Below, piece by piece: positions 742 through 43,500 of a DNA stretch of 64,000 nt. The notes beneath the pieces were generated by a model, which did no database searches, was not told the origin of the DNA, and saw only the letters and a program-made list of their open reading frames with translations. How positions within the stretch are numbered: the stretch's first letter is position 1; each line of letters starts with the position of its first letter. Origin of the DNA: Polytrichum commune (taxonomy: Eukaryota; Streptophyta; Polytrichopsida; Polytrichales; Polytrichaceae); NCBI GenBank assembly GCA_950295325.1, contig OX485804.1, forward strand, positions 63,086,533 through 63,150,532, in the 5' to 3' direction. The position numbers and the translations under genes were made by a program.

Positions 742-2172
742 TCATCCTATCTCACCACCCACCAACAATACTTGATTAATGCTCACACCTAAGAGTGGGC
801 AAGGAAGTTGGAACACAAAACCAATGTGAACAAGACTTTTCCAAGATAGGGTAGTACCATCGAAGTTTGCTTGCACATAGAGCAAGGAAAGGCAAAACAT
901 GTCTTCATTGCAACATGAAGTAACAACACATATACAAAGACTACCGAGTCTTCTTTGCGACATAAAGGCAAAGGCACATGTACTAGACAAAGAAAACCAA
1001 AATCTACGCTTCATGTACATTCATGAGCCTTCATCAATGCCCTCACCGGCCCATGCCTTCCATCTTGGCCATGTTCACCAACATTCTCTCCACCTTCACC
1101 ATAGAGGCTTGCTAGGATCAGGCTAGGATCTAGGCGTGGTATAGATTTCGGAGCTCTTCGCCACCACAAGCATGGCGTCTACTCACAACAACAGCCTCGT
1201 TGACGCAGGAGCTCCAGCTCAGGTACTACTCTTAAGAATCCCTTGATTTTTCCACCACCCACTTACCATTTGTTTCTCTCTCCATCATCTCACCAACTTA
1301 GATTTTGTGGTGGTGAAATCTTAAGCTAGACAACCGATGTTGGCCCTCATGTGCGAGAGGATCCGAAAACCGTTGTGTTTACTAAGTCAGCGTCATGTAG
1401 GTTTCCTGTTGCGTGTTGTTGTGGTGGAATAAGGGTTGAGGGAAATGTACCCAAGGATTTCGCCTTCCTTGCAGGTGCAACTTCAATTTATTTTTAAGCT
1501 TGTCCATCAGTGGTCGGCCGCGAGGAGAATCTCCAAGACGTTTTGATTGCAAATATGTGTAACCTCCGCATTTGACTGAGGTTGCATCTTGGTGTCCCTC
1601 TTATCGCCATGGATCATGCTAGGTAGCCAATGTAGAGCCTTGTGGGCGCATGCATTTGAACATCATTCCGTTTTTTTTTATGAGCGTTGTGTAGATTCAT
1701 GTTGTTTACTTTTTGTTGTGGAATAAGGTAGAGTGATTTATATGCAGGTGACTTATACGCTAGCTCCCACCCAAGGATTTTGCCCTCTTCGCATGTGCAA
1801 CTTCAGCTTTCGATTTTGAGGTTGCATTTGGGCGTCCCTCTTGTGGCGATTAATTAGGTGGTATGATGCTTAGCTTTGCCGGTTTTTTTTTTTTTTTTTT
1901 TTTTTGTGAGTGCTTCAGCATGATCCAATGGTGGCCACACCGCTGCAGGAGTTTTTGCACGACGTTCTCACCGACAACATTGGAAAAAATTCCAAACCAC
2001 ATGCAGAAGCTCGCACCCATGCCAATGATAAGGAGAAGATCATGTGTGTGCCTTTGGTTGCAACATCCGAGCTTGATTGCGTTCTCCAGGATGAGCAAGA
2101 GCATAAGGGGACGACGATTCCGGGTAGCTCCATTCTTAGCCCAGAGCTGACGGAAGAGTTTTCGCAACATAA
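742..2172 (+). repeat. Segmental duplication, copy A (paired with 15.84-17.1 kb)
   Basis: The segment covers upstream DNA, exon 1, intron 1 and exon 2 of paralog A. It aligns along its length with 15842-17092. Shared landmarks run in the same order: the AACCAAAATCTA block upstream (about 999 and 16072), the short first exon ending in CTCAG, the intron block GGCGTCCCTCTTGTGGCGAT, and the exon 2 stretch around GCTCGC.CCCA. Conservation of non-coding parts means a DNA duplication and not only a shared protein family. The alignment was done by eye, so the outer limits are approximate. Confidence 0.8.
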
Positions 2173-3515
2173 GGTACGTGGGTGTTATTCGACTCGTTTT
2201 TTTTCTACCAATTGGATTTGCACAACGCAGCTCGTGCTGCATTAGCCAATCTACTCGGATTGAAAATCAGACCTCCCTTGATTTAGTTATAATGATTTGG
2301 TTATTAGAAGTCCATGCTTGTTGGTTTCTTCAACTGAATACAGAGGTCCTCCCAATTGCGTTCACTATTGAGTGTGGAGTAGTATTGAAGACATTGTCCA
2401 ATCTCTTCTAAACATCATGTGTCTTTATGGTGTTTAATTCTTCATTGATCCTCACCAAATCCTACACCACTCAAATATAGGGTCCGATTAAAAAAAGTAA
2501 CCAAATAACACCCGCATACCTTAGCCATGTCAATGTGGAGGTTAATATTCGTCGTCACTTGGCCAAGAAGCCAAATCTGCAGAGTGAGCAAGAGTCGGCT
2601 GCCACTCAGGAGAATATTAGGTACGATAGCGTTATTTGGTTTGTTCATGATCTTCTATTGATCAGATTTCCATCTTGAGGTTTGTGTTGCGTTAGAAAAA
2701 TCTATAAAATAACATTGATTGAAAATCGGACCTCCCCTGATTTGGTTATAGTCATCGAAAGTGCATGTTTGTTGATTGCTTAACTAATTAATGCATAGGT
2801 CCTCCCATTTATTGTGATCACTATTGAGAATGCAGGAGTTAATTACATTTGGAGACGCACTCCAATCTCTTTTTAAAATGTGCCTTTATAGCGTTTGTTC
2901 TTTGATCCTCACCTAACCACACACCAATCAAATATAGGTATCCATTCAGAAAATGACATGACCCAGATACTTAACTTCATTATTGGTGCACCCTTGTAGC
3001 AAGTTCAAGCAGAACCACCAGCACGGACCAAAATCCAGTTGCACTACAAATACAAACAGGTCCGCTGCAATCTGTCCATCTCCTACTTGGAGTACCGTCA
3101 CCGCCGAATTTGTAGCATGAAGGCGCGTGCAGCCGCTGCTGCTGCTAATTCCTGGCCACCTGGAATTCTGAAGCGCATCTGGGCCGCCCTCAAATTTGTA
3201 TTCAGTTGCAGGTTCCTCCTCATCGAGTGGGCCCTCGTAAACATTGACCCGTTAGGGCCGTTGGCGCCTCTCGTTTTCAGCCTTGTGTATGCGATGGTAG
3301 GCTACTGGTTTGTGTATTCAGATCCTTTCGAGGGCCTTCTAATTAAGATGTGCATCAACACTCTCTCGATCGTCTGGGCCATAGACTACTGGCAGTGCCT
3401 CAAATCCAACGCCTGGCCGAGCCGCCGACAATCTGACTGCGACAACACGCTGGAGTATTTTCGTCAGCTTGACTACGAAAGAGCATCAATTCTTCGCTCA
3501 CATGGGATTTCTTGA
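1172..3515 (+). CDS. Paralog A: unknown membrane protein, intron-rich copy, possibly a pseudogene
   Basis: Function unknown. Exon 1 is 1172-1222 (17 codons, starts MASTHNNSL, ends CAG before GTACTA). Exon 2 is 1919-2173 (85 codons, starts HDPMVATPL). Exon 3 lies at about 2525-2620 (frame HVNVEVNIRRHLAKK). Exon 4 is 3000-3515 (starts QVQAEPPARTK, ends RSHGIS). The exon order was fixed by comparison with paralog B, where the same residues are contiguous. Exon 4 has an Ala run and hydrophobic stretches (around LAPLVFSLVYAMVGYWFVY and LLIKMCINTLSIVWAI) that suggest membrane segments. Oddities: introns 2 and 3 are both TIR elements. With the strongest donors (2174 and 2621) the reading frame does not carry cleanly into the next exon, so splicing must use weaker sites (for example a GGAG acceptor near 2540 or a donor near 2631) or the copy is broken. 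Exons 1 and 2 are firm; the later junctions are not. Confidence 0.6.
2173..2520 (+). mobile_element. MITE family M1, copy 1, forming intron 2 of paralog A
   Basis: About 348 bp. The left end GGTACGTGGGTGTTATT and the reverse complement of the right end, GGTATGCGGGTGTTATT, are terminal inverted repeats; both then run into T-rich stretches. Internal blocks (GAAAATC.GACCTCCC, TCCTCCCA.TT, CCAATCTCTT, TTGATCCTCACC, CAAATATAGG) recur in copies 2, 3 and 4. The left flank reads TAA and the right flank TTA, so a 3-bp T(A/T)A target duplication of the PIF/Harbinger type is possible but the palindromic ends leave it unresolved. The intron donor GT is the second and third base region of the element (AAG|GTACGT), and the acceptor AG lies 3-4 bp past its right end. 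Confidence 0.8.
2620..2970 (+). mobile_element. MITE family M1, copy 2, inside intron 3 of paralog A
   Basis: About 351 bp. It starts GGTACGATAGCGTTATTTGG and shares the internal blocks of copy 1 (GATTGAAAATCGGACCTCCC, GGTCCTCCCA, CCAATCTCTTTT, TTTGATCCTCACC, CAATCAAATATAGG). The right terminal repeat is more decayed. Its left end again coincides with a splice donor (ATTAG|GTACGA). The likely acceptor, TTGTAG at 2994-2999, lies 29 bp beyond the element in sequence that resembles exonic DNA of paralog B. Confidence 0.75.
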
Positions 3516-7780: not shown

Positions 7781-8829
7781 TACATTTTGGAGATGAAATA
7801 TATCTTAAATTGGTTTTGGTGGTAAAAGTTTTGTCTCAGCCAAATTTTGTAACTTCTAGCCCTTATTTTCAATAGATTTAAATGGATTACTACCAACCAA
7901 CAATACATATTGACAATGTGATTTTTCATTACAGAAGTTGAGATATAAATCATAATTTTTTTCGAGGGTGTTTTTCGTTTGGAATATAATTCTAATTTTG
8001 GAATCAATATGCATTTGTTACACTATGGTTTTGTAGGCTGAAGGGTCAAATTTTTATTCTATATGCTAAAAATATTCTACAATCCTTTGATTTTATTTAT
8101 GAAGTAGGTTTCAAGTGCTCTATCTAATGTGCTTATATTGGCCAACCGTTAACTTTGGGATTGGACTTATAATATATTTCTTTACCGATATACCATAGCC
8201 TATGTTTAGGGTGACTTCATGTTCTTATCATTCATATGTTATTTCAAGACAATGGAAAGTCTTGAATTACATAACATAATGATATTTATTGATGAGATTT
8301 GGACAACATGAAATGTTATATGTGCACTTCTATCAACGGAACATATGATAGATTAGGAATAGAAAACCCATATTATTCTACAAAATGGAGACATCAGTAC
8401 ATTGTGCAACGCAATTACATTTTACAATTTAGTGTGGGCTTAAACCAACAAGTATGCACCTAATTGCTAAGAACTAATCTAAAATGCATTATTTGCATCG
8501 CATAGAGTCGGCATCAAGGCATGACAAGCCGTCTTGAGATATTTACAGATATTGTTCACTTTGAGAGTGTCAACCATGTGCATGGAATGGAGATAAAACA
8601 ATGATGATGGAAACCCAAAACAATGACGCATGTGCACAAAAATTGTCTTATTGAATCACTTTAAATCACAAATAAACTTTTATTGAAGCGGATCACCCTA
8701 ATTTGATGGTGTGTAGTTTAGTACCCACACTATATAGAAGAAAGGAATTAGAGGACATTAACAATAATGATAAATCATATTAATAATCTTTATGTTGTCA
8801 TGTTTACACAAGACCAAAGAATTATCTAA
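7781..8829. other. Intergenic, no gene seen
   Basis: AT-rich DNA with no convincing open frame and no repeat that I could pair by eye. Confidence 0.4.
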
Positions 8830-9213
8830 GGCATGTGAGTGTTACTTGGGTTTTTTTTAATGTTCTCCAACTTCATCAGATTATATTTACACCCAGAAAA
8901 AGTTTGTGTTATCTTAGCAAAAAGATTATGAAGCCTTAGCAAATCAAATTGAAAAGCAGACCTTCCGTGATTTGGTTATGGTAATCACAAGCGCATGCTT
9001 GTTGATTACTTAACTGAAAGTTGGATATGTAGATCATCCCAACTAAATTACCTATCGAATGTGGACTCATAGTTAATGAAATCCAAAGGCACAGTCCAAT
9101 CTCTTTTAAACATGTGTCTTTGTCGATATTTGTTCTTTGATCTTCACATAACGCCACACCAATCAAATATAAGTGTCCAATTACAAAAAATAACCTAATC
9201 ACACCCACATTTC
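8830..9213 (+). mobile_element. MITE family M1, copy 3
   Basis: About 384 bp. The left end GGCATGTGAGTGTTACTTGG pairs with the right end (reverse complement AAATGTGGGTGTGATTAGG). Internal blocks match copies 1, 2 and 4: GAAAAGCAGACCTTCCGTGA, TGCTTGTTGATTACTTAACT, GTCCAATCTCTTTTAAACAT, ACACCAATCAAATATAAG. No gene surrounds it. Confidence 0.75.
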
Positions 9214-9264
9214 TCAAGTTCACAACTTCACATCCCAAAGTCACTCACTAACGCACTCACTGAA

Positions 9265-9475
9265 TAGTGTCCGGGGAGAGTTTTGGGCACAATCGGTCGA
9301 GATCCTAGCTAGTGTTTCCAAGACCAACCAGTTACATGTTGACATCTTTATTAAATTGGAGAACACTCTATAAACTCCTCCAAATGGATCCGTAATTTTC
9401 CCGAAGTCTTTAATTGAAACAGATTATTTCTCAAATTCAACCAGTTCATCTGTAACTAGCAGTCGGGTCTCCCCA
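9265..9475 (+). repeat. Dispersed repeat R3, copy 1
   Basis: It starts GTCCGGGGAGAGTTTTGGGC, then has a CGGTCGAGATCCTAG block and an ACCAGTTACATGTTGACATC block, ending near CATCTGTAACTAGCAG. Related copies are at 10295-10520 (+), about 14815-15010 (-) and 38735-38940 (-). The first 45 bp resemble the monomers of the LINE 5' array at 24669-24994. Confidence 0.65.
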
Positions 9476-9577
9476 TTCATTCATTGCTCACCCATCCATC
9501 TCACGTCATAATATGTTGCCATGCACGAGAATCATATCAAAATTCTCGTGCTGCCGAGTTCATCACGTACGAAGAGT

Positions 9578-9874
9578 GCATGCAAATCCAACGGTCCCAG
9601 TGTTGCATGCGAATCCAACAGCCCAAGTGTTGCATGTGAATCCAACGGCCCGAGTGTGGCATGCGAATCCAACGGCCCGAGTGTTGCATGCAAATCCAAT
9701 GGCCCAAGTGTGGCATGTGAATCCAACGGCCCGAATGTGGCATGCGAATCCAACGGCCCGAGTGTGGCATGCGAATCCAACAGCCCGAGTGTGGCATGCA
9801 AATCCAACGGCCCGAGTGTGGCATGCAAATCCAACGGCCCGAGTGTGGCATGCGAATCCAACAGTCTGAGTGTT
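9578..9874. repeat. Minisatellite, 11 units of 27 bp
   Basis: Eleven head-to-tail units begin with GCATGC or GCATGT, starting at 9578 and then every 27 bases, and contain the core ATCCAACGGCCC. A partial unit follows. Unit-to-unit changes are single substitutions (A/G at position 7, GG/AG, TG/TT at the end), with no length change. Because 27 is a multiple of three, open frames persist on both strands, but they are by-products of the repeat. Confidence 0.95.
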
Positions 9875-10294
9875 GCATGCTGCATGGACGGCCTGACGAA
9901 ATGTTACGATCTTCGAATTAAAATTTAGAGCATTTGATGGTACATGTATACAGTTACAAGTGTACCACGAGATCCGAGTCCCGACAAAGCCAACTGCCTC
10001 CTCCTCCTCCGACACTCTAAATCATTCCCAACTGCCTGCCCGCATTGATGTGCGAGCGATTCGACAGCCCTGCCCTGCACGGACACTACCTTACTGCCAC
10101 CTGCGAGGTCCAAGATCCGATACCTTATCCAACTTCTTAGTTCTTGAAGTCAACGAAACTCGCTTGAAAGCAAGCAAGAATGTCAGATCCACTCATCATC
10201 ACGACTCGATCGACTAGCTCGCTGACGGAGGATGAGGTTTTAATTGGATCTCGAATTCTTCTGGGTCCGATGTAACGTTGTCCGATTGGGGAGG

Positions 10295-13775: not shown

Positions 13776-14600
13776 TTGTTTATAGTAATCAAAGTTCAAG
13801 AAATTGTGATAAATATATGCTTTAAAATATAGTCCAAACATTCAAGATTATATGAAGAGTAGATATACACTTTGAGGCACAGAAAAAATTGACAATTTTC
13901 AACCAAAATATTATGGAGGTACTATATATAGCAATGTATCAACAAAGGGAAAGTCAGTTCATTCTTGACTTCAATAAATTCTTTTGAACAACCATCTTTT
14001 CATATTGGAATTAAATTATCGCCATTGACAAAGAAATTCTCATGAAGAACACAATGATACTTACTGTGACTTTCCTACCACCTTCCTTTTGGGTCAATTA
14101 GCCATCAAGAGTCATTCATGAGCCCGAAATGGGCCTCTAAGGAAGTTAATTGAAAGACAAGACTCTGTCAATTGTCAAGTCCGCTTTTAGAAGGCTTCCT
14201 GGTAGAGAGTAAAAAAAAAATTGTTTATTTATTTATTTTATTAAATAAAATAAAATAAAAATCTCAAATTCTTGTACACCACCATGGTCGCCATCCAAAA
14301 GTAGTGATTAAACTGTGAACATTCAAATGTCAACACTATTTATCATTGTATATAAGGTAGAAAGTAGGTATTAAACTATCAGCATTCATTAGTACATATA
14401 TACACAACATTATTAAGCAGTGTGTGCTCATTTATCTAGGCCCCGAGAATATAACCATGGGATGCCGCATCTAGTGCAGATTTAGTTTGCAGAAGTCTAG
14501 GATTGAAGATAACATGGAGTTTCAGGTTAGCATTGTTTGTGATATGCCAGTAGAAAATTCGCTCCAATTCTAAGTAATGAACGGGGAGAGTCGACCACTA

Positions 14601-14814
14601 CACTATTTTGTCTTATTAGTGTGGGTTACCATTCGGAGTTACACATTGCTATAACATTTTACTAAGAGTGTCAATTTTTACCCAAATAACATAAGTAAAA
14701 ATTGAACTATGAAGAATATGATATAACTTAGTCGGTAAAAATGATAATATCGGTAAAACTTTATAGCAACATGTAACTTTGAATGATAACCCACACTAAT
14801 TAGACAAAATAGTG
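14601..14814. mobile_element. MITE family M3, copy 1, flanked by TA
   Basis: 214 bp with long terminal inverted repeats of about 70 bp. The left arm starts CACTATTTTGTCTTATTAGT and the right arm ends with its near-exact reverse complement (ATTAGACAAAATAGTG). The arms continue through GTGTGGGTTACCATT, GAGTTACA and TGCTATAA. TA flanks both ends. It is too short to encode anything and has the form of a small foldback transposon. Confidence 0.85.
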
Positions 14815-14819
14815 TAGCT

Positions 14820-15841: not shown

Positions 15842-17092
15842 CTATCCACCACTAAGGCTTAAATAATGCTCACATTCAAGAAATGCTAAGGAACACAAAT
15901 TTGATGTCAACAAGACCATCCCAAGATAAGGTAGTACGGTTAAAATGTGCTTGCACGTAAAGGAAGGAAAGTTGAAACACTTCTTCTTTGCAACGTAGAG
16001 TAAAGACACATGGACAAAGACTACCAAGTTTTCTTGTCAACATAAAGTAAGGACGCATAGACAATGACCACCAAAATCTAAACTTCACAAACATTCATGA
16101 ACCTATATCAAACTTCTCCACTTCTCATTCCTTCTTCTTCAGTACTCAACAACACCGCTTGCACTCCATTCTCTAGTATCGAGAGAAGAAATATATTTCT
16201 AGAGCAATCTTATAGGTTCTCTCCTTCCTTCATGAGAGAGGTTTGCTAGTATCTACAAGGTCCCTAGATTTGAGAGCCCTTCATAGCATCAACACTATCA
16301 TGGCAGTCTTTCACAACAGCCTCACCACCGTAGTAGCTTCAACTCAGGTACCACACTTCAAAATCCCTTGATTTCCCACCTCGATCCTCACTCGTTGTTT
16401 AATTTCTCTTCAACATTGTTTATAAAAAAAATCTTTTTGGTACATTGAGATTTTGTTTTGGTGGAATTCTTAAGCTAGGTAGCCAATATGGAGCCTTATG
16501 TGTGCAAGAATTTGAATATCATTCTAGTTTTTTATTAGCATTGTGTAGTTTCATGTTGTTTATTCTTGTGGGGGAATAAGGTAGAGTGGTTTGTACGTGG
16601 GTAGTGTATCCACTGGCACCCAAGGACTTTGCCTTCTTTGCAAGTGCAACTTCAATCGGTTAGCATGTCAATCAATGGTCTTGCATGAGGAGATGTAAGA
16701 CATTTTAGTTGCGAAGATGTGTTACATGTGCTTTTGATTCTGAAGTTGCATTTTTGGCGTCCCTCTTGTGGCGATGAATTGCGTAACATGATGCTTAGCT
16801 ATGCCCTGTTTCTTTTTTGGTTTGTTTCAGCATGGTCCATTGGATGCCATCCAGAGCGTCCACGACGCTGAGGTGGAGGATGTGGCGCAACCATGGTTGT
16901 ACTACATTTCCACTAACGACATCGAAGAGATTTTCAGATCACATAGGGAGGCTCGCGCCCACGATCACAAGGAGACGGTCGTATGTGTGCCTGTGCAGGC
17001 AACACCCGAGCTTCATCGTGTTCTCCAGGAGCGGGAGCATGACAGAACAGGTCCTCGCCAGTATCTTTGCCCAAAGTTGACGAAAGACTGGT
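15842..17092 (+). repeat. Segmental duplication, copy B (paired with 0.74-2.17 kb)
   Basis: This is the counterpart of 742-2172. Upstream, exon 1, intron 1 and exon 2 landmarks are in the same order. The copies have diverged by many substitutions and small indels, more in non-coding parts, so the duplication is not recent. Confidence 0.8.
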
Positions 17093-17613
17093 TGCAACAG
17101 AATAATCTCGACTTGGAGGTTGAACTTCGTAACCACTTCGCTCAGAAGCTGACCATGCAGAGACAACAAGAGTTGGATGATGCCGAGGAGGACAACAATA
17201 TTGGTGGAGTAGTAATACCTGCCGCTGAAACCTTGCAGCAAGCTCACATGGAACCATTACGAGCCCAAAACGAAGTCCCTTGCAATCCAATCGCCTATCG
17301 TGGAAGAAATTGTAACGTCCGCAGAGTTCGCAAGAGATCCCAAACCTATGCAGGCAACACTGATTCTTCATCCATTGATCCGAGGGTACCAACACCTCTT
17401 GCTACTAATTCCACGCCACACATAATTGCAAGGACATGGACAACCTCTGCCATGTCTGCAGGTCGGAGCGTTTGGGACGCCATGCAATCCCTCCCCAGCA
17501 TGTTGCTCGCTCTCAGCAAATGTGTCCTTGGTGGGCTTAAAGGGGCTAACCCGCTGTGGTTGGCGGCACTTCTCTTCTACCTTGTAAGTTGGACATTGTT
17601 GTGCAATTTTTGA
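16300..17613 (+). CDS. Paralog B: unknown protein with C-terminal membrane anchor
   Basis: Two exons: 16300-16347 (16 codons, MAVFHNSLTTVVASTQ, then GTACCA) and 16831-17613 (260 codons plus stop, after TTTGTTTCAG). The phase is 0 at the junction, giving 276 aa. The start was chosen because paralog A has an equivalent short first exon with ATGGC. The protein is rich in charged residues and His, with an acidic DDAEED stretch near residue 133, a basic segment RRVRKRS in the middle, a Ser/Thr-rich region, and a single hydrophobic stretch at the extreme C-terminus (NPLWLAALLFYLVSWTLLCN). That arrangement suggests a tail-anchored membrane protein (inference). I recognise no family. Unlike paralog A, the coding sequence has no interruption after intron 1. 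Confidence 0.7.
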
Positions 17614-24668: not shown

Positions 24669-24994
24669 GTGCCGAAAACAGTGAGCGAGGAGATTTTTTG
24701 GACATAACCTGTTGAGACCCCTAGTGCCGAAGACAGTGAGCGGGGAGATTTTTGGGCATAACCGGTTGAGACCCTGAGTCCCGAAGACAGTGAGCGGGGA
24801 GATTTTAAGCATAATCGGCCGAGATCCTATGTGCCTTAGACAGTGAGCGGGGAGAATTTTGGGCATAACCGGTCGAGATCCTGAAGTCCCGAAGACAGTA
24901 AGCGGGGAGATTTTTGGGCATAATCGGTCGAGATCCTGTGTGTCGTAAACAGTGACCGAGGAGATTTTTCGGGCATAAACCAATCGAGATCCTG
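24669..24994 (+). repeat. Six-unit monomer array in the LINE 5' UTR
   Basis: Units start near 24669, 24724, 24778, 24831, 24886 and 24940 (period 53-55 bp). The core is ACAGTGAGCGGGGAGATTTT, then GGCATAA, then CGGTCGAGATCCT. Other LINEs (mouse L1) carry promoter monomers at this place, so a promoter role is plausible (inference). Upstream, 24100-24500 holds a looser repeat of the type GGAGAGACA(C/T)CG(C/A)TGA. Confidence 0.9.
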
Positions 24995-39235: not shown

Positions 39236-40190
39236 ACACATGGCATGGGCTTCTACAGCTTGGGTGGCCCTTGAAGGACCTAGCCTGAAACAATCGAAAA
39301 CATGAAGAAAATTGAACGTAACAATAAAAAAAGGTTGGGTTACGAAATATTGTTGGGTAAAACGCAGGCACTGTGTGTATTGCATTGGGGTAAAACGCGA
39401 TCTGCATTTTTTCTGCATTATGTAGCCTACACGGTGGCTTGCCTTGGCTGCAGCCATTTTTTGTTGTGTTGTATAGTTGCTCGTGCGGTTACCCTACCTC
39501 CCCAATGGCTAAAAACATTTGCAAGGTAGCAAATCTAGGCCATGTGCACAACCCTTCAGGGTTTGACTCAGGGCTTGAGAATGATGGGGGGGTGTCTCGG
39601 GGGGGTCAACGGCCGAAAAGTAGAACCACGTGAGAACAACTATAGGGTGCTTTTTATTCATTGGCAAGAAAATTTATAGAAGCTTTGGATCTACCATAGC
39701 CTACTTAAATTGCAAAACATGTGATTTTATATAATATAGCATAAGGGGAAAACCCCCACTTTAGGTTTGAAGTAGAAAGAAATTAGTATGAAAAGAATAA
39801 TAGAGGATTCTAAAAAATAGAATGAATATATTCACATATAATACATGCAAAATGAAAGAAAATTGAATTACTAGGTTATGATGTATACACTCTTCTTTCA
39901 CCAGTATATAGCAAGGTGGATACATCATGCCATATTGGAGTCTTAAGTTTGCATTTGTAGAGAACAAGTAAATCAAAATTTTATAAGTAATTTAGCATCA
40001 TTTGAAACAATCTAGGTTTTCTTTTATAAGTACCTATAGGGTGGTGAATATTTGGTGAAGTTGTTTTTTTCTACCTAAAGGGTTCCCAAAAATCCAAACG
40101 AGGAGGTAAATAGCCCCCATAAAAATACCCTTTGTACGCATGTGGTTACATTTCACAAGAGGGAGTGACCCCCCCAAGGGGGGTGTTTAA

Positions 40191-40560
40191 GGTATGTGGG
40201 TTATGTGGTTTGTTCTTCATGTTCTACAACTTCTACCAAATAGATATACACAACAAAGCCCAAGTTGCATTAGCAAATACAATGAAACATTTGCAAAAAA
40301 ACAGATTGAGAATCGGACCTCCCATAATTTAGTTATGGCTATCGGAAGTGCGTGTTTGTTGATTTCTTAACCGGATACAAAGGTCCTCCCAATTATGTTC
40401 ACTATCAAAAGTAGAGTAGTTATCAATATTTAAAGACAAAGTCCGATCTCTTTTGAGGATGTGTCTTTAAGATGTTTGCTCTTTGATCCTCACTGACCCA
40501 AACACCAATCAAATGTAGGGGGTCAAATCAAGAAATCAAACCACTTTAGACCCATCTACC
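40191..40560 (+). mobile_element. MITE family M1, copy 4
   Basis: About 370 bp. The left end GGTATGTGGGTTATGTGGTT and the reverse complement of the right end, GGTAGATGGGTCTAAAGTGG, are inverted repeats, with TTAA just outside both. Internal blocks match copies 1-3 (GAGAATCGGACCTCCCATAA, GTGCGTGTTTGTTGATTTCT, GGTCCTCCCAATTATGTTCA, ACACCAATCAAATGTAGG). Its left end TTTAAG|GTATGT is a good splice donor consensus although it lies outside any gene. A partial further copy lies near 40935-41000. Confidence 0.8.
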
Positions 40561-43500
40561 TTAAGTTATACGGGATATGCCACAATTTGTAAAACCCCTC
40601 TCCCGACGGACAAGTATCACAATAATGGTCAATTTTGCTCTATGATATTAGACCACATTTAGCATACCTTCTTACGGTATGGGATTTATTTGGTTTTCTT
40701 TGTTGTTTGTTAATACGTTCTACTACTTTGTCTTGAAGAGTTTAGATTGTTTTGTATCTGTAAATGTATGTGAAGGTGCCAAGATTAATCCCATACAGTT
40801 GACAAGCTAATTTTGAATTTTTATGATATATCCAAGTCCAACGATGTTTAGTTATAAGGTCATATAGAACCCCCTACCCCTACTCCCCCCCGCAAGCTAT
40901 GTCGACTATTGAGCCTAGCATCGTTGACAATTTTGAGCACATAGTCCAATCTCTTTTAAACATGTGTCTTCATGATGTTCATTTGTAAATATGTATGACC
41001 TAACCACCCAACACTCACATATGAATATATGAATAAGATGAGTGTATATAGGTGTAGTAATTAAGATAAGCCATAACATTATTGAGATTCATAACAATAT
41101 TTTGTGGAACGAACAATATTTCATAGAATATTCCTAGATACTTCCACATTCCGTCTAAATGTGGGGAAAATTCTATGGAATATTGTCAGTCCCACATAAC
41201 ACTATTATGGAACTGAATAATGTTATGGCAACCGATGTAGGCATGCTTATATTATATGAAGGAGGAAACTAGAGCCATCTAGACACAATGGACAACATGG
41301 TGGTGAGAAAACCGTTGTCCCACCATTGCCCAATGTTGCCCACCAGTATGGAAAGGTGGGAAGCTTGCAGGTGCAACGAGCAAGGACGACACGGGTCAAA
41401 CTAGTATATAGATATACATAGTGTGTATTTGAGTTTTGGTCATTTGTATGAGCTTGAATCTTCCTGTAATTCATTCTACATATATATACATGGTTCAATT
41501 GGAATAATACATGAAGAAATGGAATATTTTTAAATAGGATCCATCTTGACTCTTTTAGTTGCATAATTTTAATCCCCTCCATATAACATGTTCAAGTCCA
41601 TAATGGGCCACTCGTACCTTTAAGACTTTAGAGTTGGGCCTAGAATTGGTATGTGGACCTTGTGTGGTCAGTCCGGCTAATTGGAAGCCTACAATTGAGT
41701 AGTGTATGATAATCTTTACAGTTAAAAATGATCACCGCAAAGACAAGTGTACAATGCCATTGTGTTCATAATGTAAAAACCTTTACAAGTTCAATTGTTA
41801 ACACAATTGGGCGGGCCTATCCAATCACTTAACGAGAAGGAAAGTCTTCACTTTGAGCTCTTATAATTTTTATACATCTCAACTCCTATTCTAAAACTTG
41901 AATGACAATTTGTGTAATTTGCAATTGCTATCGAGATAAGACACTTTATTATTCAATCTTGTTCTAAATTGTTTGTGGACATGGAAATGCCCACCATAGC
42001 ACCACATAAATTAAGTATCTAGGCCCGAGAATTCTTTGAAAATTTGCATGACTTAGAGTAGAGTTGTATGTGTCAGTTGTTCCAACTAACAATATCTCCA
42101 AGCATCTTGTTGGGCGTGGAGGGGGGGGGGGGGGGGAGGAGTGTGCCACATCTACATGTTTTCATAATTGGCATGAAAATGTGAAAATTCATCATCATAA
42201 ATTGATTATGGCAATCATGATATCCTTGTATATAAAATTTCATACCATTTTCAAGAGTAATTTGAATGTAGCAATTAAATCTTACACCCGCCATTTTGTA
42301 AAATTACGGGGATGCCCCAATTGAGTCCATCAGTTTTGGAAATTGCAAAACTTTTTTTAGAGTAAAAATTGCCTTCTCGACATTCACACATGAATTTAGA
42401 GCAAGTTTAGGAAGAGTGACAATTATAATTTAAGTTTTTTATGCTTTAGATCCCAAGGTTTGATTTGCAGGCATGTCAAATTATGGGTGGCTTTGAGAAA
42501 TTTATCCCATAGAAAACACATTCTCCAAGTACTTGAAAGGTACTCATATTAGAATGCACATCTGTTTAGAAACAATCAACACGTGCTTTCAAATATTCAA
42601 GTCCATTTTAACTCTAGTTAGACTTGTCCAATGTGCTTGCCTTGATGCCAAACGTATCCCTAGTGTCCAAAACATTTCTAGAAATCCAAATGTTGCCATG
42701 TTTATTAGAGGTAAAAAAAAATCGCAACTAACCATCAAATGCTTGCATTTTTGGCCAAAAAGTCAAACCTTTCGAGACCATCTCCCTAAAATCACTCTTT
42801 AGCTTAAGGACATGAAAGTACGTGAACCAAATGAAAATTGTGTAAAAACTCAAATATATCCGCACAGTCATTTAGGGGTTGAGATGAAAGACATTCAATG
42901 CTTTTAGCATGTTCATATAAATTGAGCATTATTTTTGTTTACTAGATGTTTTGAAATCTTCATCAAACTCTTTTCAAGTTACTATGTATGAGTGTCGAGA
43001 AGAATAACCTTGCAAGACAACAAACAATCGCTATCTTCCAAAAACTCACATCACCAATAAATTATATCGACGTTGTAAAATTTTGAACTACCGTATGTGT
43101 GAAGCCCAAAATGATCTCCAAAAGAATTTAGAAACTAATGTTGTTTCCACAACTTAAAATTGTTGTTGCAAGTTATTTAACAAATACCTCCAAATGATTG
43201 AAAGCTAGATTTGACCTTTTGACATCCCATAAATCCACATAGATATTTTTGATTGGAAACATTCATGAACCTTCCAAAGCAAGCATGTAATATCATTTAG
43301 TGAGATTGTGTTATAATGGCATTGGGGGTTATCATAGCTTGTCAAGTAGTCAACTAGTGCCCTAAGGGTTGGTCGACCCTGATTATCCAACAACTCCCTT
43401 ATATACATGTCACACGTATGTGTTTTTGGAATGTGCATGTTAATGTTCTTTTAAGCTTTCAAAAATTTGTCATTTTGGAATTTGTCATCCTCCAGATATT

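Follow-up and report, generated by a model that had tools for sequence, protein, structure and literature searches.

Giroux et al. are said to have described, in 1994, a maize Ds element that is spliced as a new intron, and the system resembles the one that we propose for gene A of Polytrichum commune in that a non-autonomous DNA transposon, having entered coding sequence of a plant gene, is turned into an intron by way of a splice site in its own end. The Ds cases are reported to be recent alleles with RNA evidence, whereas A, which was studied at the level of sequence, holds a pair of insertions that look old; the elements also belong to different families, M1, the repeat present in A, being one that duplicates TA. 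Gene A lies in a window of 64,000 nucleotides (positions 63,086,533 to 63,150,532 on the forward strand of contig OX485804.1, assembly GCA_950295325.1), to which the coordinates below refer.

Passages of PMC3443670 present transposon insertion as a mechanism of intron gain, list Oryza and Zea among the plants and other organisms in which it has occurred, and cite the maize Ds element; in the model set out in those passages the element either carries a splice site close to one of its ends or brings latent sites in the vicinity into use, as would be the case in A. The ideal case given there duplicates AGGT, whereas in A the duplicated bases are TA and the acceptor would be a latent AG within the exon, so that coding sequence would be lost. 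Introners derived from DNA transposons, as portrayed in excerpts of PMC9860276, are short TIR elements that duplicate their target and have a splice site at the end, which is also a description of M1; introner families recur as whole introns, however, and the sampled M1 copies do not. The same paper reports introners in no land plant. Plant MITEs, in the portion of the review PMC12595863 that concerns them, are high-copy short elements near or in genes that are able to introduce splice sites, again as in M1, but what that portion describes is altered splicing, whereas A would have acquired a new intron in an exon. PMC4256211 states that no fixed gain of an intron had been linked to a transposable element.

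The features of gene A and of its paralog, gene B, are placed in the window as follows.

1172..1222, forward strand: predicted exon 1 of gene A, 17 codons, from alignment with exon 1 of B; the intron position CAG|GTAC is common to both genes
1919..2173, forward strand: exon 2 of gene A, from homology to B, ending CAT AAG at the donor of the first M1 copy
3000..3515, forward strand: last exon of gene A, 171 open codons and TGA, from its open frame and weak homology to B
16300..16347, forward strand: predicted exon 1 of gene B
16831..17613, forward strand: exon 2 of gene B, without interruption

Across exons 1 and 2 the protein alignment of A with B scores 125, against 30.7 ± 5.1 in shuffles, and exon 2 of A is recovered at E 4e-6 when the genome (408 Mb in 64 contigs, seven of them of 42-78 Mb) is searched with B as the query. 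For the last exon of A, an open frame of such length would occur by chance with a probability of 0.001, as judged from composition, and the homology to B is weak (p 0.02 for DNA and 0.12 for protein). Values of G+C by codon position are coding-like in both exon 2 (0.60/0.35/0.54) and the last exon (0.51/0.43/0.61). Used as a genome query, the last exon matched itself and nothing else at E 1, while the genome searches for further paralogs that could give the ancestral state found, besides A and B, a single partial match that was weak (E 0.09); no Pfam domain in either gene scored above the curated cut-offs. Near the end of the B frame, CTT|GTAAGT at 17584 (17580-17590) resembles a consensus 5′ splice site, and B may have another intron and exon after that point. 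A search downstream of B for a relative of the C-terminal 75 residues of A gave nothing significant (best E 1.6).

The element itself looks like an ordinary MITE, a short non-autonomous TIR element with a TA duplication and a high copy number. Its inverted ends, from an alignment of 23 copies, are AGGTATGTGGGTG...CACCCACATACCT, and 26 of the 34 copies whose right end was located at no more than six mismatches are 350-390 bp long. With up to three mismatches allowed, the TIR pattern has 6277 matches in the genome, compared with 37 for the reversed control, so M1 ends number in the thousands. That the target duplication is TA follows from the end alignment, from the base columns at the ends (the left end is preceded by T in 30 of 34 copies, and the right end followed by A in 29 of 34) and from relatives of empty sites: among 12 joined flanks that were searched, three had relatives spanning the junction, and the nine such relatives examined all lack M1 and the duplication, with the TA intact in eight. 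A TA duplication brings to mind Tc1/mariner elements (Stowaway), but the ends of M1 differ from those of Stowaway. A three-base TWA duplication, which is a trait of PIF/Tourist elements, was ruled out, the left consensus being TAA, the right TTA, and the empty sites having an unrepeated TA. The end letters GGTATGTGGGTGTTA were not found in print in a literature search. Among 60 perfect-TIR copies, 14 have TCTACCT at the other end in place of CATACCT, and these may form a subfamily whose inverted repeat is less perfect. In the end consensus stands AG|GTAYGT, so that whichever way M1 is oriented it has a 5′ splice site 2 nt from its edge. Besides the copies in gene A, the window contains two more.

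8828..9215, forward strand: further, diverged M1 copy, from alignment with genome copies
40190..40561, forward strand: further M1 copy in a TAAG target, from alignment with genome copies, outside any reading frame

Repeats of other kinds also occur in the window. A tandem array at 9524-9933 has a 27-nt period and about 15 units; a unit of 53-55 nt (approximately GCGGGGAGATTTTTGGGCATAACCGGTYGAGA) is both tandem, at 24669-24968, and dispersed, with related pieces at 9272, 10305 and 38893 (minus strand); and a long hairpin at 14598-14817 has 81-nt arms that are 83% complementary and 58 nt apart.

A preliminary description of the window had held that two M1 copies interrupt A while B runs through both sites, and that the gain took place in A after the duplication. 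Local alignment confirms the two interruptions, which have the following parts.

2170..2171, forward strand: left TA duplication of M1 copy 1
2172..2521, forward strand: M1 copy 1, from alignment with genome copies, with donor AG|GTACGT at 2174, 2 nt inside
2522..2523, forward strand: right TA duplication of copy 1; the next base is G, which gives the TTAG of the acceptor first proposed
2524..2617, forward strand: segment of A that was once coding, with homology to B by its DNA score against shuffles; probably intronic now
2618..2619, forward strand: left TA duplication of M1 copy 2
2620..2971, forward strand: M1 copy 2, from alignment, with the first A of the element missing and donor TAG|GTACGA at 2621 now out of phase
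2972..2973, forward strand: right TA duplication of copy 2

In local alignment with B, the middle segment scores 60 (17.1 ± 2.8 when shuffled) and the flank to the right of copy 2 scores 39 (17.6 ± 3.0 when shuffled); beyond 2091 the homology between A and B rests on such local alignment of chosen segments, BLASTN of A against B at E 1e-3 giving no match past that position. When each M1 copy is excised from A together with one TA, 313 codons are obtained in the frame of B with one internal stop, the TAG at 2997-2999, where B has CAG (Gln). Because excision restores the frame of B in this way, the direction given in the preliminary description is supported, and both copies landed in a single coding exon of A once the two genes had separated; B, the sole paralog compared, has neither of the M1-filled interruptions. 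The terminal branches of copy 1 and copy 2 in a tree of 73 M1 copies are 0.105 and 0.186, each of which is an upper limit on the age of the insertion. An order in which copy 2 came first and copy 1 later extended the intron upstream would fit the longer branch of copy 2, although branch lengths are a weak guide to order in a tree that holds 73 of thousands of copies.

The donor strings that had been pointed out at the ends of the copies, AAG|GTACGT at 2174 and TAG|GTACGA at 2621, are indeed there. It is their pairing with the acceptors first proposed, so as to give two exact introns, that fails, for the frame is broken and the middle exon has three stops. The junction of AAG|GT with TTAG|CC causes a frameshift of +1, that of TAG|GT with TAG|CA one of −1. 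At copy 1 the splice adds one base because the donor lies 2 nt inside the element and the TTAG acceptor (2525) takes one flanking base, and at copy 2 the shift is the opposite one because a base has been lost from the left end of the element. Acceptor 2525 is also the lowest of the six compared, at −4.2 on an approximate plant matrix, from which all splice-site scores given here derive.

Other junctions keep the frame. A scan of donors from 2100 to 2720 and of acceptors from 2480 to 3080 gave 21 single-intron models in which A stays open to its TGA, and the top three all use donor 2174, whose score of 6.2 is the highest of any donor between 2100 and 2720. Their acceptors are 3060 (253 residues), 3000 (273 residues) and 3039 (260 residues), and all three models absorb the middle exon, copy 2 and the in-frame TAG. 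The model with acceptor 3000 has these features.

2174..2999, forward strand: proposed single intron GTACGT...TTGTAG, 826 nt, phase 0, frame kept; the alternative acceptor at 3060 scores higher
2997..2999, forward strand: TAG, the acceptor of the proposed intron, CAG in B, from comparison with B

On the approximate matrix, acceptor 3000 scores −1.6 and acceptor 3060 scores −0.1; the first acceptor of A itself scores 0.1 and that of B 5.0. The context of acceptor 3000 in A is CTTGTAG|CAAG, and the corresponding CTTGCAG|CAAG of B is still coding. The chance that a splice would be in phase is 1 in 3.

A mechanism can be envisioned on this basis. The M1 end holds a strong 5′ splice site, so the spliceosome could begin an intron within the element, 2 nt from its edge. 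The 3′ splice site would not come from M1 but would be an AG that already existed in the exon, at 3000 or at 3060. Counting codons suggests that each of the two donors, at the time of its insertion, would have matched the phase of acceptor 3000, in the case of copy 2 before its base was lost. Today's structure would then be one intron from 2174 to one of these acceptors, with the middle segment, copy 2 and the TAG made intronic. A new intron of A probably begins at the donor of copy 1, and we think it somewhat likely, on balance, that the history of A is one of two MITE insertions in which the donor of copy 1 at 2174 starts a single intron ending at an exonic AG, with A still spliced; that A is transcribed and spliced today, and which acceptor it uses, is what we infer from the letters of the locus.

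It is very improbable that the middle exon is kept between two new introns whose donors or acceptors differ from those of the preliminary description. Under the stricter score limits no two-intron model is open, and under loose limits 11 of 2831 combinations are, none of them in the form originally proposed. The best of these uses sites 2174, 2481, 2541 and 3060, with a score sum of 8.7 and acceptor 2481 inside copy 1, but each of the 11 depends on a donor that lies in what used to be exon (three on 2541, eight on 2124). In three of them just the first five middle codons stay in the frame of B, and in the other eight the middle is translated in a different frame; no open splice model that was found retains more than those five codons in B's frame.

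The single intron from 2174 also has to be weighed against the proposal that A is a pseudogene, in which the exon was already dead or decaying when the two MITEs entered it, a nonsense mutation followed, and the ends of M1 resemble splice sites but are unused. The stops produced by the junctions first suggested and the one nonsense codon that the restored frame contains, at 2997-2999, are what a pseudogene would be expected to have, and passages of PMC4256211 state that most transposable elements in annotated coding sequence are mis-annotations, especially pseudogenes. The value of dN/dS between A and B over exons 1 and 2, which is 0.96, likewise fits a pseudogene, and because of it we take protein-level constraint over these two exons to be weak. 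On the other side, the single stop sits exactly at a usable acceptor AG, and 273 codons are open in spite of terminal branches of 0.105 and 0.186. In a neutral simulation, with an indel rate taken from the M1 copies (618 indel events, 5318 substitutions) and a quarter of the indels assumed to be in frame, the 273 codons outside 2174-2999 stayed open and unshifted in none of 4000 runs at 0.105, and likewise in none of 4000 at 0.186; the proportion of runs that kept them was 0.5% at 0.05 substitutions per site and 12% at 0.02. When stops alone are counted, 4.7% of runs remained open at 0.105, so the stronger figure leans on the assumed indel model. The openness of these codons, although both copies look old, is the ground for reading A as a spliced gene, and it favours a gene that selection has maintained since M1 entered it over a pseudogene; if the M1 copies are much younger than their terminal branches, the open frame says little. 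For the 32 middle codons dN/dS is 0.34, a value drawn from few sites to which both lineages contribute, and it does not suggest intron sequence that has long been neutral. The low scores of the acceptors and the lack of a significant protein match between the last exon and B (p 0.12) also speak against a spliced gene. Taken with the points on both sides, a pseudogene is possible though somewhat unlikely.

The locus had further been taken as evidence that M1 is an introner-like family. We consider it extremely unlikely that M1 copies regularly become introns, with A holding two that end exactly at the element. The presence of AG|GTATGT at both ends of M1 does make the donor available in either orientation, and insertion into TAAG would allow seamless splicing, but splicing from a donor 2 nt inside the element to an acceptor made of TA plus G adds one base, and the junctions that were proposed for A break its frame. 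A comparison of sampled copies points in the same direction. Of 159 M1 loci examined, the 101 with both ends identified were used, comprising 61 of 99 perfect-TIR loci among the matches listed (all on a single contig, C1), 19 of 20 best-hit loci and 21 of 40 TAAG loci. When the flanks were joined, frames spanning the junction of at least 60, 80, 100 and 120 codons were found at 42, 21, 8 and 5 of the 101 copies, against 38.8, 20.7, 10.7 (± 2.8) and 5.2 in shuffled flank pairs; in a partly different set of 101 copies the counts at 60, 80 and 100 codons were 37, 23 and 10, against 35.1, 20.1 and 10.9. The two copies in A give 138 and 85 codons in this test. The 101 sampled copies thus show no excess of interrupted reading frames over shuffled flank pairs and no tendency to coincide with introns, within the power of a test whose thresholds are missed by short exons on both sides and under which a few percent of copies could be introns; within that power, this is the outcome that the preliminary description had named as a refutation.

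Copies in TAAG targets were considered as a favoured intron class and rejected: TAAG occurs at 9 of 124 clean TA ends, where about 1 in 16 is expected by chance, and the 21 TAAG copies belong to the 101 that are without excess. The copy at 40190 begins TTTAAG|GTATGT, as had been described, and it does so in a TAAG target, but there are stops in all three frames on each side within 320 nt.

The recognisable genes around M1 copies place the element away from exon edges. Flank frames of at least 52 codons number 448 in 117 of 120 M1 loci, and a scan of the 150 longest gave eight Pfam families at E 0.01 with one member each, matches beyond the first-named member having been assigned to loci by eye; one M1 copy lies next to a frame that matches a seed maturation protein family at E 0.0002. 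In four readable genes the distance from M1 to the exon edge is 52-178 nt (136 and 53 nt at L022, 83 at L023, 178 at L019 and 52 at L059), the exon edge of L056 being unreadable and left out. At L022 (263-835) M1 lies in the intron of a presumed amidohydrolase match, as an ordinary intronic MITE, and at L014 (388-399) it starts about 10 nt past the stop codon of a presumed cytochrome P450 frame, in what is probably the 3′ UTR. There is also the narrower proposal that, given the 5′ splice site at both ends of M1, a small share of its thousands of copies, namely those whose target was TAAG or that have an exonic AG in phase downstream of them, are fixed introns of working genes, with A among them, in a group of plants for which PMC9860276 reports no introners; this we regard as quite unlikely.

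From the earlier interpretation as a whole, then, the insertion of a TIR element into the coding exon of A, with a donor supplied by the element, stands, and the two exact introns and the introner family do not. A is an isolated case, and a probable one, of intron creation by insertion, which is a known kind of event. Whichever reading of A applies, the family-wide introner claim is without support in the sampled M1 copies. Without an intron from 2174, A would be a gene damaged by MITEs; if that intron is real, A would be an example of an old transposon-derived intron in a plant, one for which the element brings the donor and the exon supplies the acceptor.
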